From the NCBI GenBank assembly GCA_012031265.1, contig JAAUTY010000011.1, positions 1-64,000 on the forward strand: a stretch of DNA of 64,000 bases, given 5' to 3'. The notes under the pieces were generated by a model. It did no database searches. It was not told where the DNA came from and saw only the letters and a list, made by a program, of their open reading frames with translations. Made by a program: the position numbers and the translations under genes. Shown here piece by piece: positions 13,249-64,000 of this stretch (the stretch's first letter is position 1; each line of letters opens with the position of its first letter). Origin of the DNA: Spirulinaceae cyanobacterium SM2_1_0. GTDB taxonomy: Bacteria > Cyanobacteriota > Cyanobacteriia > Cyanobacteriales > Spirulinaceae.

Positions 13249-13899
13249 ATGACCGAGCCTGCCGCTACTCCCTCCGCCATTGTGTCACCGCCCGTCGCCG
13301 CGCTCCCGAAATTTGACCCGCCGCTGGCGCTGGGTGTGCTGGCGTCGGGGAGTGGCAGCAACTTTGCGGCGATCGCCCAAGCCATTACCAACGGCGGACT
13401 CCAGGCCGAGATCCGCGTCCTGATCTACAACAATCCAGGTGTCAAAGTTGCCGAGCGCGCCGCTGAACTCGGCATTCCGGCAATCCTGCTCAACCATCGC
13501 CACTTCCGCCAGCGCGAAGACCTCGACCGCGAAATTGTCCGCACGCTGCAACAACACGGCGTCGAGTGGGTGGTGATGGCGGGCTGGATGCGGATTGTCA
13601 CCCCAGTGCTGCTCGATGCCTACGACCAGCGGGTGATCAATATCCACCCCAGTCTGCTGCCCAGTTTTCCTGGCATTCATGCAATCGAGCAGGCGCTGGC
13701 GGCGGGGGTCAAGATTGCCGGCTGCACCGCACATATCGCTTGCCTGAAAGTCGATAGCGGGCCGATTTTGCTGCAAGCGGCGGTGCCAGTATTCCCTGCT
13801 GACACCCCTGCAAGCCTGCATGCGCGCGTCCAGGTGCAGGAGCATCGGATCTTGCCAGCGGCGATCGCCCTCGCCGCTCAGCAGGCGGGACAGCGCTAG
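13249..13899 (+). CDS. purN: Phosphoribosylglycinamide formyltransferase
   Basis: Transfers a formyl group from 10-formyl-tetrahydrofolate to GAR, the third step of purine synthesis. The product is 216 residues. An N-terminal extension of about 25 residues precedes the Rossmann core LGVLASGSGSNFAAI. YNNPGVKVAERA follows, then the signature MRIVTPVLL...INIHPSLLPSFPGIHA with the catalytic Asn/His, AGCTAHIACLKVDSGPIL with the catalytic Asp, and the C-terminal helix. The ATG at 13249 is taken; an ATG at 13183 would add 22 unconserved residues. Its TAG stop lies within CTAG, which is also the stop of the convergent gene at 13896. Confidence 0.95.
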   Translation: MTEPAATPSAIVSPPVAALPKFDPPLALGVLASGSGSNFAAIAQAITNGGLQAEIRVLIYNNPGVKVAERAAELGIPAILLNHRHFRQREDLDREIVRTLQQHGVEWVVMAGWMRIVTPVLLDAYDQRVINIHPSLLPSFPGIHAIEQALAAGVKIAGCTAHIACLKVDSGPILLQAAVPVFPADTPASLHARVQVQEHRILPAAIALAAQQAGQR

Positions 13900-43185: not shown

Positions 43186-44628
43186 TTAGCCGACCGTCCC
43201 TTCTAGCTTCAGGCTCAGCAGCTTATCCGCCTCCGCCGCAAACTCCATTGGCAGTTGGTTGAAGACATCTTGGCAGAAACCGCTGATCAGCATCGAAATC
43301 GCCGCTTCGCTATCGATGCCCCGCTGCGCAAAGTAGAACAGTTGGTCTTCACCGATCTTCGAGGTCGATGCCTCATGCTCGACCCGCGCCGACTGGTTTT
43401 CGACCTGGATGTAGGGGAAGGTATTGGCTTCTGCGGTATCACCAATCAGCATCGAGTCGCACTGCGAATAATTACGCGCCCCCTTCGCCTTCGGCCCCAT
43501 CTTCACCAAGCCCCGGTAGCTGTTTCGTGAGCCGCCTGCCGAGATACCTTTGGAAATAATCGTACTGCGGGTATTGCGACCGATGTGCACCATCTTGGTG
43601 CCAGTATCCGCTTGCTGCTTATTATTAGTCAGCGCGATGGAATAAAACTCGCCAACCGAGTTATCGCCGACCAAGACACAACTGGGGTATTTCCAGGTGA
43701 TTGCCGAGCCAGTTTCTACCTGTGTCCAAGAAATTTTGGAGTTGACGCCTTTGCAGAGACCGCGCTTGGTGACAAAGTTATAGATGCCACCTTTACCATT
43801 TTCATCACCGGCGAACCAGTTTTGCACGGTTGAGTACTTGATCTCGGCATTATCCAGGGTCACCAGCTCAACGACAGCCGCATGAAGCTGATTGCTGTCG
43901 TACATGGGCGCGGTGCAGCCTTCGAGATAGCTAACTGAAGCACCTTCTTCAGCCACAATCAGCGTGCGCTCAAACTGACCCGTATCACCGTCGTTGATCC
44001 GGAAGTAGGTGGACAGCTCCATCGGGCAGGTGACACCTTTGGGAATGTAGACGAAGGAGCCATCGCTGAATACTGCCGCATTCAGGGCAGCGAAGTAGTT
44101 GTCGCCAGCGGGGACGACCGAGCCGAGATACTTTTGCACCAATTCGGGGTGCTCTTGTAGCGCCTCCGAGATTGAGCAAAAGATGACGCCCGACTCAGCC
44201 AGTTTTTCCTTGAAGGTCGTGCCAATCGAAACGCTGTCGAAAATCGCATCAACGGCGACATTGGAGAGCCGCTTCTGCTCAGAGAGGGGGATGCCAAGCT
44301 TCTCAAAGGTGTCGAGGAGTGTCGGATCGACCTCATCGAGGCTGTCGAGCTTCTTTTTAGCTTGCTTAGGAGCCGAGTAGTAAACGATGTCCTGGTAGTC
44401 GATCGGCGGATACTCCACGTGCTGCCAGTTCGGCTCGGTCATCTTGAGCCACTGCCGATAGGCCCGCAGGCGAAAGTCGAGCATGAACTCAGGCTCATTT
44501 TTCTTCGCCGAGATCAGCCGCACCACGTCCTCGCTCAGGCCGCGTGGGATCGTGTCTTTTTCAATATCGGTAATAAAGCCGTACTTGTAGGGCTGATTGA
44601 CGAGGGTCTTGACCTTAGTTGCGCTCAT
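43186..44628 (-). CDS. sufB: Fe-S cluster assembly protein SufB
   Basis: The main scaffold of the Suf system, 480 residues. Typical segments are [80 protein letters not shown] and GAKNY-like [15 protein letters not shown], ending with [23 protein letters not shown] 44628 gives the usual cyanobacterial length; a TTG at 44673 lies 15 codons upstream. First gene of sufBCDS, divergent from sufR, with two operator-like palindromes between them. Confidence 0.97.
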
Positions 44629-44753
44629 GTGCTCGCTCTCAATACGTAAAAATCTCGATCCCTGATGGCTCAAGGCTACTGCCGACCTTGCTCAGAAGAG
44701 CCGCAACCAGCAAAGAGTCGCGGTGAATTGGGAGAGGTCGGCTCAACAGGGAT

Positions 44754-44773
44754 AAGCAACAAAGTTGTTGCTT
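44754..44773. promoter_or_regulatory. SufR operator, site 1
   Basis: A 20-base near-perfect palindrome with 9-base arms AAGCAACAA / TTGTTGCTT and centre AG. It contains CAAC-N6-GTTG (44757-44770), the motif bound by SufR in Synechocystis. It lies 125 bases upstream of the sufB start. Confidence 0.88.
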
Positions 44774-44796: not shown

Positions 44797-44812
44797 ACAA
44801 CAACTTTGTTGT
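44797..44812. promoter_or_regulatory. SufR operator, site 2
   Basis: The palindrome ACAACAA-CT-TTGTTGT contains CAAC-N6-GTTG (44798-44811). Its centre is 41 bases (about four helical turns) from that of site 1 and 55 bases before the sufR start. It probably serves autoregulation of sufR. Confidence 0.86.
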
Positions 44813-44858: not shown

Positions 44859-45509
44859 ATGACGGCTTCCCAGCACGCCTCAACGAAAGATGACATTCTC
44901 CAATACCTGCTGCGACAGGGCAGCGCCACGGCGCAAGAGTTAGCGGAGACTTTAACGATCAGCCCACAGGCGATAAGGCGGCACCTCAAAGACCTGGCGG
45001 CTGAGGAGCTGATTGAGTATCGCTCTGTCCAAGTGGGTCTTGGCCGACCACAGCACCATTACTCGCTGAGTCGGCGGGGGCGCGATCGCTTTCCGCAGCG
45101 CCACGGCGAGTTCGCGGTTTCATTTCTAGATGCCCTCGTGGAAATGGTGGGCGAGGAGCAGGTCAGTGCTGTGCTGCGTAAGCAGTGGGAGCTTAAGGCT
45201 GAGCGCTATCGCCTCCGGATTGGTCAGGGTGGTTTGCTGGATCGCGTCGAAAATCTTGTCAAGCTGCGCCAGGATGAAGGTTATATGGCGGAATGGCATC
45301 CGGTCAGTAGCCAAAGTGACCACGAGCAGTATATTTTCGCGGAGCATAACTGCGCGATCGCCGAGGTGGCAGAGTCTTTCCCCAGCGTCTGTGGGCACGA
45401 GCTGGAGATGTTCGCGGCGATCCTGCCCGACTGCACGATCGAGCGCACACAGTGGCTGAATGACGGCGAGCATCGCTGCGGTTATCTGATTCGTCGTCGC
45501 CCTGACTAA
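44859..45509 (+). CDS. sufR: Fe-S-sensing transcriptional repressor SufR
   Basis: A 216-residue repressor of the suf operon. The N-terminal winged helix reads KDDILQYLLRQGSATAQELAETL, ISPQAIRRHLKDLAAEELI. A dimerising middle region follows, and a C-terminal cluster-binding segment with four cysteines: EHNCAIAEVAESFPSVCGHELEMF, ILPDCTIERT, HRCGYLI. Three of them are the ones reported to hold a [4Fe-4S] cluster in the family. The DNA-binding form represses sufBCDS and itself through the two CAAC-N6-GTTG sites in the 230-base divergent region. ATG 44859 begins the conserved frame. Confidence 0.95.
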   Translation: MTASQHASTKDDILQYLLRQGSATAQELAETLTISPQAIRRHLKDLAAEELIEYRSVQVGLGRPQHHYSLSRRGRDRFPQRHGEFAVSFLDALVEMVGEEQVSAVLRKQWELKAERYRLRIGQGGLLDRVENLVKLRQDEGYMAEWHPVSSQSDHEQYIFAEHNCAIAEVAESFPSVCGHELEMFAAILPDCTIERTQWLNDGEHRCGYLIRRRPD

Positions 45510-60599: not shown

Positions 60600-60854
60600 T
60601 CAAAAGTCGCGCTCGACGCTACCGGCGAAGACCGGTTCGACCCGGATCGCGGCGATCGCGCTCGGACGCACCACCATGTATTCACCCTGGACATTTTTGA
60701 TCGGGACGTTGATGAAGTTGGCGTCGTTCGCTTTCGGCAGGAGTTCGGCACTATACCATTTCTGGAAGTCCTGAATCGTGGCAAAGCGCACTTCTTCACG
60801 GTGACCGCCTGCCAGCATGATGAAAACGGCATATTCGTCTGGAGTCCTGGGCAT
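60600..60854 (-). CDS. Conserved-type hypothetical protein, 84 residues
   Basis: A small mixed alpha/beta protein (MPRTPDEYAVFIMLAGGHRE ... FATIQDFQKWYSAELLPKAN, NVQGEYMVVRPSAIAAIRVE). I do not recognise a family. A ribosome site AGGAGG lies about 7 bases before the ATG (minus strand, TCAGGAGGCGTTACC), which supports the start and the reality of the gene. No signal peptide. Function unknown. Confidence 0.7.
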   Translation of the reverse strand: MPRTPDEYAVFIMLAGGHREEVRFATIQDFQKWYSAELLPKANDANFINVPIKNVQGEYMVVRPSAIAAIRVEPVFAGSVERDF

Positions 60855-60984
60855 GGTAACGCCTCCTGAGAATACTGACCGCCCGCGCGACCAGTCTGAG
60901 TTCGTACAGAAACTCTCTTAGCAGTGCCGCTGTACTTTTGGCAAGCGATCAACCCCGCATCCACCGCTTTTTACCGCGCCGCCA

Positions 60985-61743
60985 TCAAGCCAGCAAGTTA
61001 AACCGCTTGAGTAATCCTTCCAGCAATGACGGCAGAGTTTGGGGCAACTCAGTCACGGCTTGAAACAGCAATTGCTGATGACCTGGCAGGTCAAAGGGCA
61101 ACATCCCGTCCAGACGCTCCAGTTGCGCGAGCAAAATTTGGTTGCCCTGCTTGCATTGGAGCGCGTAGCCGAGTTCGACACAGATATAGGGACTCAACAG
61201 CCGCGTGCCAGTTCCGCTGGCGAGGCCAATTGGTGTACCGTCCGCGATGAAGAGCAGGCTTTTGCGGATGGCGCGCAGTTGGTTAGCGCTGAGGCGGAGG
61301 GGAGCATCTTCGGGGCGCTCCGCGAGCACGAGGCTCAGGGGTAGGCGCGATCGCCGGTTGAAATCAACAATCGCCTGCTGCAAGCTGGCTTGCAGCGCTT
61401 CACTGCTGGCGGCGTACTCCTGCTGGTAGCTAAAAAAGATCGTCGGTTCGAGGCTGGCGGCGCTGTCCTGCTTCGCGAAGTAGATTTCGTGCGAGACAAG
61501 ATCGAGATTAGCGATCGCATAGCTGCCGCTGCCTTCGAGATAAAACTCCACCGTCTCGCCGGTCAAGTAGCGCTGAAACCAAGCCGCTTCCTCAACCGTG
61601 TGGCGATCATCAAGGAAGTCGGCGCGCAACCCAGACTTGAGTAGGCTACTGCGACTCAGGCGCAGATCATGCGGCCGCTGAGTCACTTCGCGGAGCGGTT
61701 CGTAATGTTCGAGATACCAGGCGCGCAGTTCGATAATTGCCAT
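60985..61743 (-). CDS. Unknown protein with TIR-like C-terminal half
   Basis: A 252-residue protein. The first 100 residues are unrecognised (LRAWYLEHYEPLREVTQRPHD, then AAWFQRYLTGETVEFYLEGS). From about 115 on: AIVDFNRRSRLPLSLVLAERP, LRAIRKSLLFIADGTPIG, SPYICVELGYALQCKQGNQI and MLPFDLPGHQQLLFQAVTEL. The order 'disfavoured-strand, S-x-x-x-x-E-x-G-Y-A, then PFDL' resembles TIR-like and deoxyribosyltransferase-like nucleotide-binding folds, with the Glu of VELGYA in the catalytic position. This is pattern reading, not a firm assignment. It may be co-transcribed with the 84-residue gene 130 bases downstream. Confidence 0.55.
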   Translation of the reverse strand: MAIIELRAWYLEHYEPLREVTQRPHDLRLSRSSLLKSGLRADFLDDRHTVEEAAWFQRYLTGETVEFYLEGSGSYAIANLDLVSHEIYFAKQDSAASLEPTIFFSYQQEYAASSEALQASLQQAIVDFNRRSRLPLSLVLAERPEDAPLRLSANQLRAIRKSLLFIADGTPIGLASGTGTRLLSPYICVELGYALQCKQGNQILLAQLERLDGMLPFDLPGHQQLLFQAVTELPQTLPSLLEGLLKRFNLLA

Positions 61744-61799
61744 GCAACCCGTTCGCAGGTCGGTTGCCCAGGCCTGCGGTCAGCAGTATTGATGGCATC

Positions 61800-62171
61800 T
61801 TAGCAGTAGGGGCTAATATCTTCGCCACACTCCTCGGCCAGATAGCTGAGAGCGCGGAAGCGCAGCATCATCAGCTCGTCGTAGACCGGGTTGAGCTTGC
61901 AGAGCGGCGGAATACTCAGCAGCGTGTGCCCGAAGAGTTTCACCGTGCGGGCAAAGGGGCACTGCGACGGAATCAGAGTGCAGAGGCGGTGTGCCTGCCG
62001 GGGCGTGCGAATCTCGAGCTGGTCGAGCCACTGGCGCAGGGGGCGGAGGGGCTGCCAGCGCGATCGCCCGCGACGGAGCCAATCCCCGCCGATGAAATGG
62101 GCGAGAGTCGGGTGCGCCTCCAGCCAGTTGCTGAGTCGGGTGTGCTGAATGGGGTGATGGGTGACAGTCAT
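61800..62171 (-). CDS. Mo-dependent nitrogenase C-terminal-like domain protein
   Basis: A 123-residue protein matching the family named Mo-nitro_C, which occurs as free-standing genes in cyanobacteria, many without nitrogenase. Motifs are WLEAHPTLAHFIGGDWLR, IRTPRQAHRLCTLIPSQCPF and the hallmark IPPLCKLNPVYDELMMLRFRALSYLAEECGEDISPYC. Six cysteines are present (LC, QC, LC, EC, YC among them), which could hold an Fe-S cluster or metal. Upstream lies a tandem array with three CAAC-N6-GTTG sites, the SufR-type motif, the nearest 56 bases before the start codon. Function unknown. Confidence 0.85.
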   Translation of the reverse strand: MTVTHHPIQHTRLSNWLEAHPTLAHFIGGDWLRRGRSRWQPLRPLRQWLDQLEIRTPRQAHRLCTLIPSQCPFARTVKLFGHTLLSIPPLCKLNPVYDELMMLRFRALSYLAEECGEDISPYC

Positions 62172-62226
62172 GATCGTTTGCCTAAGTTCTAATCACTGGA
62201 TGCTGGTGTTTTAGGGTGTCGAAAAA

Positions 62227-62240
62227 CAACTTTTTGGTTG
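62227..62240. promoter_or_regulatory. CAAC-N6-GTTG site 1 of the array
   Basis: CAAC-TTTTTG-GTTG. Closest to the start codon of the gene at 61800-62171 (56 bases upstream), a position suited to block RNA polymerase. Same half-sites and spacing as the sites at 44757-44770 and 44798-44811. Confidence 0.65.
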
Positions 62241-62284
62241 CTAATTACGAGGTGTCATTCCTGAACATTTAAGGCATGGTTAAA

Positions 62285-62298
62285 CAACTTGCTGGTTG
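62285..62298. promoter_or_regulatory. CAAC-N6-GTTG site 2 of the array
   Basis: CAAC-TTGCTG-GTTG, 58 bases from site 1. Confidence 0.65.
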
Positions 62299-62343
62299 CT
62301 AATCATTGAGCCTGACATCAGGAACTTTAAACACCTCGTAAAA

Positions 62344-62357
62344 CAACTTGAGTGTTG
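62344..62357. promoter_or_regulatory. CAAC-N6-GTTG site 3 of the array
   Basis: CAAC-TTGAGT-GTTG, extended to 5-base arms ACAAC/GTTGT, 59 bases from site 2. Confidence 0.65.
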
Positions 62358-62781
62358 TCATTGCCGGGGTGCAGCCCTGCGCTTCCTTAAGCTCCCATAC
62401 CTTTGAGGATCAGGGTTTTGCCCAGTGTTAACTTTTGTTTCAGGATTCTGCGAGTGAGTAAACCGTAGTTTATGGCATTCGATTTCGGCTCGCAGTCGCG
62501 GAACAATCGTCAACATTATCCTTCGCTTCTTGGCTCAAGTACAAGCCATTGGCAGCGATAATTGAGGCAATGTTCTCTCATTCTATGGTTCACTTTCAGG
62601 CTTGGTTGTGCCGTATTTGACATCCCGACTGGCATCACTACAAATTGGTGATTTTGCTCACCATTTTCCCGAAAGTTATCGCTGCCCCATAGACAGGGAA
62701 CTCCACCACCGCGATCGCCATCAATAGCAACCGGGCGGTCAATGATCGCCACCTCACTCACCCTCTCTACATCTGCCGCCC

Positions 62782-63309
62782 ATGTTGCTCCGTCTGACCC
62801 GCCCGCTGAGCGCCCTGTTCCTCAGCAGCAGCCTACTGTTGACCCTGAACTTGCCTGCCCATGCCGCTGAGCGCGTGACCCTCAGCTACGGTGGCATCCA
62901 GGACAGCATCACCGTCGCTGACCTCGCCGATTTCGCTGAAACCGGCCAACCCTCCGCGAAGCTCGCCGCCTACCTCCTGCTCACCAATCGCCAACCCGAA
63001 GAGTTGCGCGACATCCTCACACGCAGTATCCCGATGGAGAGTAGTCTGTTGTCCAGCGCCCTCAACAGCTTCGTCGGCGATCTGTTGCTGAATCAAGTGG
63101 ATGATGTGGTGATAAACCCAGACGGCAACAGTCGCGACGCACTCCGCACGGCGCTGATCGAGTCAGCGGCGACCAACAATCGCCTGACGTTGCTGGAGGT
63201 GTTACAAAATCACCCGGCTGACGATGTGCAGATCGATGGCGATCGCCTCGTCCAATTCATCGACCAATTGCAGTCCCTGTACCAAGGCATCTCCGACTTC
63301 GGACTCTGA
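62782..63309 (+). CDS. Secreted DUF1400 (alpha/beta hydrolase-associated) protein
   Basis: A 175-residue precursor with a signal peptide (LSALFLSSSLLLTLNLPAHA, cleavage after AHA). A stand-alone DUF1400 domain follows, which in other cyanobacterial proteins precedes an alpha/beta hydrolase domain: AERVTLSYGGIQDSITVADLADFAETGQ, LAAYLLLTNRQPEELRDILTR, FVGDLLLNQVDDVV, LIQ-type C-terminal VQFIDQLQSLYQGISDF. No hydrolase part is present. It probably acts in the periplasm or lumen; the function is unknown. Confidence 0.85.
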   Translation: MLLRLTRPLSALFLSSSLLLTLNLPAHAAERVTLSYGGIQDSITVADLADFAETGQPSAKLAAYLLLTNRQPEELRDILTRSIPMESSLLSSALNSFVGDLLLNQVDDVVINPDGNSRDALRTALIESAATNNRLTLLEVLQNHPADDVQIDGDRLVQFIDQLQSLYQGISDFGL

Positions 63310-63443: not shown

Positions 63444-63548
63444 CTAGTCCACGCAGGCGAAAGTGAGGGTGCCATTCAAATTGGCTGGAAGCCTTGAAAA
63501 TATTAGCTTTCTGACTTCCGAATTCTGACTTCCGCATCGCGAGACTAG
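63444..63548 (+). mobile_element. CTAG-flanked MITE-like element, copy 4 (diverged)
   Basis: A 105-bp relative of the elements at 37.4-38.2 kb. It starts CTAGTCCACGCAGGCGAAAG, shares TGAG and CCATTC blocks with copy 3, and ends CTTCCGCATCGCGAGACTAG, against CTCCGCGTAGCGGTACTAG in copies 1 and 3. CTAG flanks both ends, and the right one (63545-63548) overlaps the dps stop codon. Same orientation as the other copies. Confidence 0.68.
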
Positions 63549-64000
63549 AGCAGGTCGCTGCGTTGCGTCAGATGCGCCTCCAGGAACCAGAGGCGCTTGT
63601 CAACCGTGCGCGAGATTTCGGTGTAGAGGTCAGCCGTATCAGCGTCACCGGCTGCATCGGTTTTATCAATGCTCTCACGGACGTGCTGGGCGTAGGTGGC
63701 ATAGCGATCCGCCAGTGCCGTAACATGCTCCGCACCGTTGACGGCTTCGAGGTCATACTCCGGCAGCAGCGAGTTGTCCGCCGCGATCCGCGCGGTTCCG
63801 TAGGCGATCGCGCCCAGAGCTGTGACCCGCTCGGCGACCATATCGACATACTCTTCCAGTTCGGTCGCCATCTCGTCAAATAGTTCGTGGAGCTGGAAAA
63901 AATCCATGCCCTTGACATTCCAGTGTGCCTGCTTGACCTGGGTTTTGAGATCGAGGGTAGTCGCCAGCGTCTGCGTCAACACTTCAACCACCGTCTGGCG
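63545..64000 (-). CDS. dps: Dps-family ferritin-like DNA-protection protein (5' end beyond window)
   Basis: At least 151 residues are in view. The ferroxidase signature is DLKTQVKQAHWNVKGMDFFQLHELFDEMATELEEYVDMVAERV, which holds the His, Asp and Glu iron ligands between subunits. AHVRESIDK-type helices follow, then SRTVDKRLWFLEAHL at the C-terminus. Dps stores iron, uses peroxide, and protects DNA. Codons for RQT precede the first in-window start (GTG/ATG-like near 63991), and this matches the family's continuing helix, so the real start lies past 64000. The stop codon TAG sits in the CTAG flank of MITE copy 4. Confidence 0.9.
   Translation of the reverse strand, partial: RQTVVEVLTQTLATTLDLKTQVKQAHWNVKGMDFFQLHELFDEMATELEEYVDMVAERVTALGAIAYGTARIAADNSLLPEYDLEAVNGAEHVTALADRYATYAQHVRESIDKTDAAGDADTADLYTEISRTVDKRLWFLEAHLTQRSDLL

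Follow-up and report, generated by a model that had tools for sequence, protein, structure and literature searches.

A tandem array of three predicted SufR operators upstream of a Mo-nitro_C (PF06967) gene in a Spirulinaceae cyanobacterium

The stretch of DNA analyzed here, hereafter the window, comprises 64,000 nucleotides of contig JAAUTY010000011.1 from Spirulinaceae cyanobacterium SM2_1_0. Positions 60600-62171 of the window hold a conserved cluster of three genes, all read from the minus strand, the last two of which belong to no Pfam family. The first gene of this presumed target operon (61800-62171) encodes a 123-aa protein of the Mo-nitro_C family, which matches PF06967 over positions 2-83 of 83 with 138.5 bits (cut-off 27). 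It is followed by a conserved gene for a 252-aa protein without a Pfam or NCBIfam match (60985-61743) and then by a conserved gene for an 84-aa protein without a Pfam match (60600-60854). The 252-aa gene follows the Mo-nitro_C gene in other cyanobacteria too, being found near it in 19 of 216 loci in one search and in 3 of 15 in another, and most of these loci also hold the 84-aa gene. PF06967 itself is present in 58 of the 59 genomes searched, with three copies in the genome studied here. On the other side of the intergenic region, a DUF1400 gene (PF07176) starts at 62782 and is read away on the other strand.

The same window contains a suf locus, in which sufB (43186-44673, minus strand; an open reading frame that served as the sufB query) and sufR (44859-45509, plus strand) are divergently arranged. 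The product of sufR, the presumed regulator, matches TIGR02702 with 337.6 bits (cut-off 178.8), so that a SufR is encoded in this genome, and it is the only protein of the genome that matches SufR at E <= 0.001. Two SufR operators with the core CAAC-N6-GTTG lie between sufR and sufB at 44757-44770 and 44798-44811, with centers 41 bp apart.

The region upstream of the Mo-nitro_C gene, 17 kb from sufR, carries three further copies of this core, as the sequence-only reading of the window had claimed, and they were confirmed at 62227-62240 (site 1, which with its flanks reads AAACAACTTTTTGGTTGCTA), 62285-62298 (site 2) and 62344-62357 (site 3), with no strand assigned to any of the five sites. The center-to-center spacings are 58 and 59 bp. 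These agree with the repeat units of 58-59 bp proposed earlier, but the likeness of the units proved to lie mainly at the palindrome: unit 1 shares 78% and 61% identity with the others over 36 nt, and the cores with their flanks are the best-preserved part. The array was not reported by Tandem Repeats Finder at a score of 30. The three sites span 55 to 186 bases 5' of the Mo-nitro_C start codon (ATG at 62171), with 55 bases between the ATG and site 1, the nearest, rather than the 56 counted previously. A simple scan of 62100-62800 found no sigma-70-like promoter. Beyond the DUF1400 gene, 1.4 kb from the array, the window ends in a Dps-type gene (63545-64000).

To what extent the core is informative depends on the scale at which it is counted. 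The window contains seven copies of CAAC-N6-GTTG against a mean of 0.98 and a maximum of 4 in 100 shuffles, in line with the earlier estimate of about one by chance. In addition to the three array cores and the two between sufR and sufB, there are two others (40660 and 41337), both with negative scores on the SufR matrix described below. Genome-wide, there are 126 copies of the bare core and 122 of the reversed pattern; the core alone is thus uninformative, and we rejected it as evidence. The information is in the flanks of the core. The sufR-sufB sites of other genomes have common flanks, roughly TTAA(A/G)CAACA....TGTTG(T/C)TTAA, and from the list of these sites we drew up an extended operator, WARCAACN6GTTGYTW, with the array already known to us. 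Sites 1 and 2 match it perfectly and site 3 with one mismatch, and the right flank of site 3, GTTGTCA, is that of the second suf site. The 5.03-Mb genome contains three perfect matches, two in the array (sites 1 and 2) and one at a suf site, versus one for the reversed control; at one mismatch there are ten matches versus 12 for the control, five of the ten being suf and array sites. The other matches with up to one mismatch were set aside: those at L145, L148 and L149 lie inside reading frames, L146 falls in the gap that separates an RNA-binding protein gene from a hairpin followed by a T-run, and L147 is located upstream of moaA.

For a graded measure, we used a SufR matrix made from 43 distinct sufR-sufB sites at 32 loci, with the genome under study left out. 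The five highest scores in the window are those of the second and first suf operators (34.5 and 31.9), array sites 2 and 3 (25.8 each) and array site 1 (23.1), and the sixth, 11.8 (at 13428), falls inside a reading frame. All array scores are below that of the lowest training site (27.5), and the array sites are therefore predicted to be weaker than suf operators. The moaA site scores 13.7 in this genome, and that of a relative (G010) scores 26.4.

We assessed the recurrence of such sites in a sample of 216 PF06967 loci, 209 of them distinct and 22 of them syntenic orthologs of the gene in the window. The sequence-only reading had named exact sites upstream of orthologs as a check. An exact core was found within 500 bases of the PF06967 gene at 7 of the 216 loci (six distinct genes), versus one for the reversed pattern and 1.3 for shuffles, and at none of the 22 syntenic orthologs. 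Two of the six genes have the extended operator, L110 (genome G041) and L214 (G001, of the same family as the genome studied here), whereas the hits at L117 and L132, which lie in coding-like upstream sequence and have negative matrix scores, were rejected. A matrix score of at least 12 within 400 bases was obtained for nine of the 209 distinct other PF06967 genes (L110, L214, L250, L160, L134, L030, L083, L181 and L086; 86 kb in total), whereas the remaining noncoding DNA of these loci (131 kb), in which reading frames of at least 120 codons were masked and composition was unmatched, yielded no such score. By this measure, 4 of the 22 syntenic orthologs have a site, two of them (L083 and L086) with a poor second half. 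Within the family, the scores before Mo-nitro_C genes are 25.6 (G001), 19.2 (G004), 18.7 (G012) and 14.4 (G008), the genes of G004 and G008 being syntenic orthologs, and in G010 a score of 19.5 occurs just past 400 bases. In G041, two sites 42 bp apart precede the Mo-nitro_C gene in an arrangement like that between sufR and sufB. A second sample, of 36 genomes, showed by eye no strict site at a PF06967 gene among the matches listed (75 of 87).

The recurrence is visible only with the flank-aware matrix, and the unbiased evidence for it consists of the matrix result against the noncoding control together with the strict hits at L110 and L214. Given the small number of exact and matrix sites and the negative second sample, the link between SufR-type sites and Mo-nitro_C genes appears to be real in a minority of lineages and not general. 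Many Mo-nitro_C orthologs (L001, L002, L005, L014, L081 and others) have, by eye, a different common upstream sequence, comprising a CRP-like GTGAT...TCAC and, near the start, TCCGGTAA followed by TGTAG.

The search was widened with a long palindrome, TWAARCAAYN6RTTGYTTWA, which was relaxed after the matrix hits were known. In 13 genomes of the family, this pattern with up to one mismatch occurs at 54 places versus 17 for the reversed control. Nineteen of the 54 are perfect, with 12 at sufR and three before Mo-nitro_C genes (G001, G004 and G008); hoxE, chlB, a phosphoketolase-like gene and a PAS-domain gene are each preceded by one. The 35 places with one mismatch are distributed over chlB (three, one of them in an egtD-chlB gap), ado (three), nifJ, hoxE, petF and phosphoketolase-like genes (two each), and suf, Mo-nitro_C, chlL, feoA and an acetate-CoA ligase gene (one each); 10 of the remaining 16 are inside reading frames. 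The products of chlB and chlL belong to the light-independent protochlorophyllide reductase, hoxE to the bidirectional hydrogenase and feoA to ferrous iron uptake, while nifJ encodes pyruvate:ferredoxin oxidoreductase and ado the aldehyde-deformylating oxygenase. Target genes were named by NCBIfam or Pfam, and their remaining copies by tblastn to the named ones. Since the ado, petF, nifJ and phosphoketolase hits all come from one genus, each counts as a single lineage; in that genus the palindrome precedes ado (L340, L345, L349), nifJ (L303, L341), a [2Fe-2S] ferredoxin gene (L342, L343) and a phosphoketolase-like gene (L338, L363, L365). Palindromes before chlB (L336, L353, L369, L347, L378, L388) and chlL (L364, L280) come from several genera of three families, and those before feoA-feoB (L300, L298, L382) from three genera. 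Four family genomes, including the one studied here, have a palindrome before hoxE (L319, L069, L335, L360); two of the four are weak, scoring only 9.9 (this genome) and 2.9 (G002) on the matrix, and at L069 two sites 35 bp apart face an adhE-like gene.

Outside the family, 16 genomes, chosen with the G041 and G035 sites already known, yielded 24 perfect palindromes versus two for the reversed control. The 17 loci fetched comprise sufR-sufB or sufB (ten), a lone sufR, chlB (two), Mo-nitro_C, feoA-feoB, a NifU-domain gene and one unexplained case (one each); G035 has a further site before chlL, and a site in G015 lies 330 bases upstream of a pyruvate formate-lyase gene. Over all 29 genomes, 4 of 43 perfect places lie before Mo-nitro_C, for which the Poisson probability is 3e-10, or 5e-7 if only noncoding DNA (assumed 15%) is considered, but these figures are too favorable because the pattern was relaxed after two of the four had been seen and G041 was chosen with its site known. 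At L051 (G199; 1501-1550, and the same in G153), a short redoxin-like reading frame lies 300 bases downstream of a pair of strong SufR-type sites, which are 36 bp apart. The core also occurs in tandem 42-bp repeats (2 x 21 bp) at L037 (1298-1479), by eye before a carotenoid-oxygenase-like gene, and at L061 (3044-3099), by eye before an antitoxin/PIN-like pair.

The array is also a 134-bp imperfect inverted repeat centered on site 2, in which parts of the linkers repeat each other in inverted orientation; an 11-base arm at 62245-62255 (plus strand, TTACGAGGTGT) pairs at all 11 positions with an arm at 62331-62341 (plus strand, ACACCTCGTAA). It is predicted to fold as one long imperfect hairpin, which could act as a structured leader RNA or as a cruciform. 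The gene-strand RNA fold has a z-score of -3.68, unmatched in 200 shuffles, the DNA fold has a z-score of -2.88 with 1 of 200 shuffles as good, and when the linkers alone were shuffled, 1 of 500 sequences attained the observed energy. However, the RNA fold energies of the two strands are -53.7 and -53.8 kcal/mol, meaning that there is no strand preference. No Rfam family matched the region up to an E-value of 1, by which a known RNA family was rejected, and a DNA search of 12 other family genomes returned only short matches. We therefore consider a role in RNA or cruciform structure very unlikely. It is equally improbable that the array is a neutral tandem or inverted repeat, with the sites as its by-product. 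Repeats with the same core do exist elsewhere in the order, with five units at L037 and two at L061, and one array linker weakly resembles the L061 unit (p 0.035), but the three other linker comparisons gave p-values of 0.16 to 0.25, so that kinship is weak at best. The sequence-only reading had named as a refuting outcome that the array be a neutral repeat with copies elsewhere in the genome, and this was not seen: a DNA search of the genome with 62172-62480 returned the region itself and one 20-bp match, without a second copy, and the array as a dispersed repeat was rejected. A search of plasmids gave nothing of note, the one match being 35 bases at 86% identity on a Serratia plasmid (E 0.9). 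The conservation of the cores and flanks over the linkers and the recurrence of the sites before the same gene family also argue against neutrality.

Two further alternatives accept the sites as operators and differ on the gene or the protein. That they serve the DUF1400 gene is conceivable given the divergent orientation of this gene on the opposite strand, but its start is 424 bases from site 3 as against 55 bases between site 1 and the Mo-nitro_C gene, and in G001, G004, G008 and G041 the sites precede Mo-nitro_C amid other neighbors, making this reading highly improbable. Binding of the array, and of such sites in related genomes, by another protein with the same half-sites, such as a low-oxygen regulator of chlB, hoxE, nifJ and feoA, is unlikely, with arguments on both sides. 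The inner bases of the array sites (CAACT..., ...GGTTG) differ from those of the suf sites (CAACA...TGTTG), and the other targets resemble a low-oxygen set. In opposition to this, the matrix that picks out these sites was built from sufR-sufB sites alone, and the one SufR-like protein had no rival in the genome at E <= 0.001, in a search confined to SufR-like proteins as distinct from distant winged-helix ones.

The most probable explanation, to which we assign a likelihood of about two in three, is that all three sites of the array are SufR operators within the promoter region upstream of the Mo-nitro_C operon, which would be one target of a broader SufR regulon covering Fe-S and low-oxygen enzymes. 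The earlier proposal of SufR-type control is partly supported: it is strengthened by the suf flanks of the sites and by their recurrence before the family, and weakened by the rarity of exact sites in orthologs. According to the parts of PMC13421787 and PMC7058544 consulted, SufR with an oxidized cluster binds CAAC-N6-GTTG and represses suf, and reduction or loss of the cluster leads to derepression; the corresponding parts of PMC4755962 also served as a source for the motif and mechanism. By analogy, SufR dimers with intact [4Fe-4S] clusters would bind the array sites and repress the Mo-nitro_C operon, and the loss of the cluster upon iron shortage or oxidative stress, or its reduction, would release SufR and allow the operon to be expressed together with suf. 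That control would take the form of repression rather than activation is something we infer, because no promoter was found. With scores below those of the suf operators, the array sites should be vacated first. Adjacent sites are separated by approximately 5.5 helical turns and the outer pair, sites 1 and 3, by approximately 11.1, which would put that pair on one face of the DNA. Pairs of RCAACN6GTTGY at array-like spacing were found in 2 of 388 genomes, this one and G193, where the repeat is inside an 832-codon open frame; a promoter array with this spacing was found in none of the others among the 388 genomes.

Together with sites of this type that some related genomes have before the same gene and before Fe-S enzyme genes, the array suggests that the Mo-nitro_C gene belongs to an iron-sulfur response. 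Its product contains cysteines that are candidate Fe-S ligands: in the 214 aligned rows, Cys71 and Cys91 are invariant, while Cys115 is found in 196, Cys64 in 180 and Cys123 in 131. The AlphaFold model contains a confident helix-helix-strand-strand-helix domain (63 of 123 residues with pLDDT >= 90), for which no PDB match was obtained by sequence or fold at E <= 0.001 (best E 3.0). A broader and more tentative view, for and against which the balance is nearly even, is that SufR acts as a wide Fe-S/low-oxygen regulator in the order, with operators before chlB, chlL, hoxE, nifJ, feoA, NifU-domain, ferredoxin and ado genes in various lineages, and that the Mo-nitro_C family, whose nitrogenase-derived name would then have long been a misnomer, is a Fe-S/low-oxygen factor in this regulon. 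Should the sites be functional, this conserved cluster of cyanobacterial genes would gain a testable setting, namely Fe-S cluster status, and SufR would link Fe-S supply to dark or low-oxygen enzymes.

In the parts of the literature searched, we found no published SufR site at Mo-nitro_C, chlB, hoxE or nifJ. Papers that mention both SufR and Mo-dependent nitrogenase draw no binding-site link between them in the parts consulted; one of these reports a -5.6-fold change in low CO2 for alr1713, the Nostoc homolog of Mo-nitro_C. The cyanobacterial SufR targets reported in the parts of PMC13421787 consulted are sufR, sufBCDS and ftrC. The array resembles the operators of Synechocystis SufR (sll0088) between sufR and sufBCDS in its core, 6-base spacer, flanks and the presence of more than one site per intergenic region. 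It differs from suf operators in having three sites rather than two, centers 58 and 59 bp apart rather than the 41 bp of the same genome, T and G rather than A and T as inner bases, lower scores and another target gene. Like the array, the repeats at L037 and L061 carry several cores in register, but their 42-bp units are near-identical, whereas the 58/59-bp units of the array differ outside the cores. A parallel to the proposed target is ftrC of PCC 7942, which the same parts of PMC13421787 describe as controlled by SufR although it is not one of the sufBCDS genes; it is transcribed jointly with suf, whereas the Mo-nitro_C operon stands apart with predicted operators of its own.
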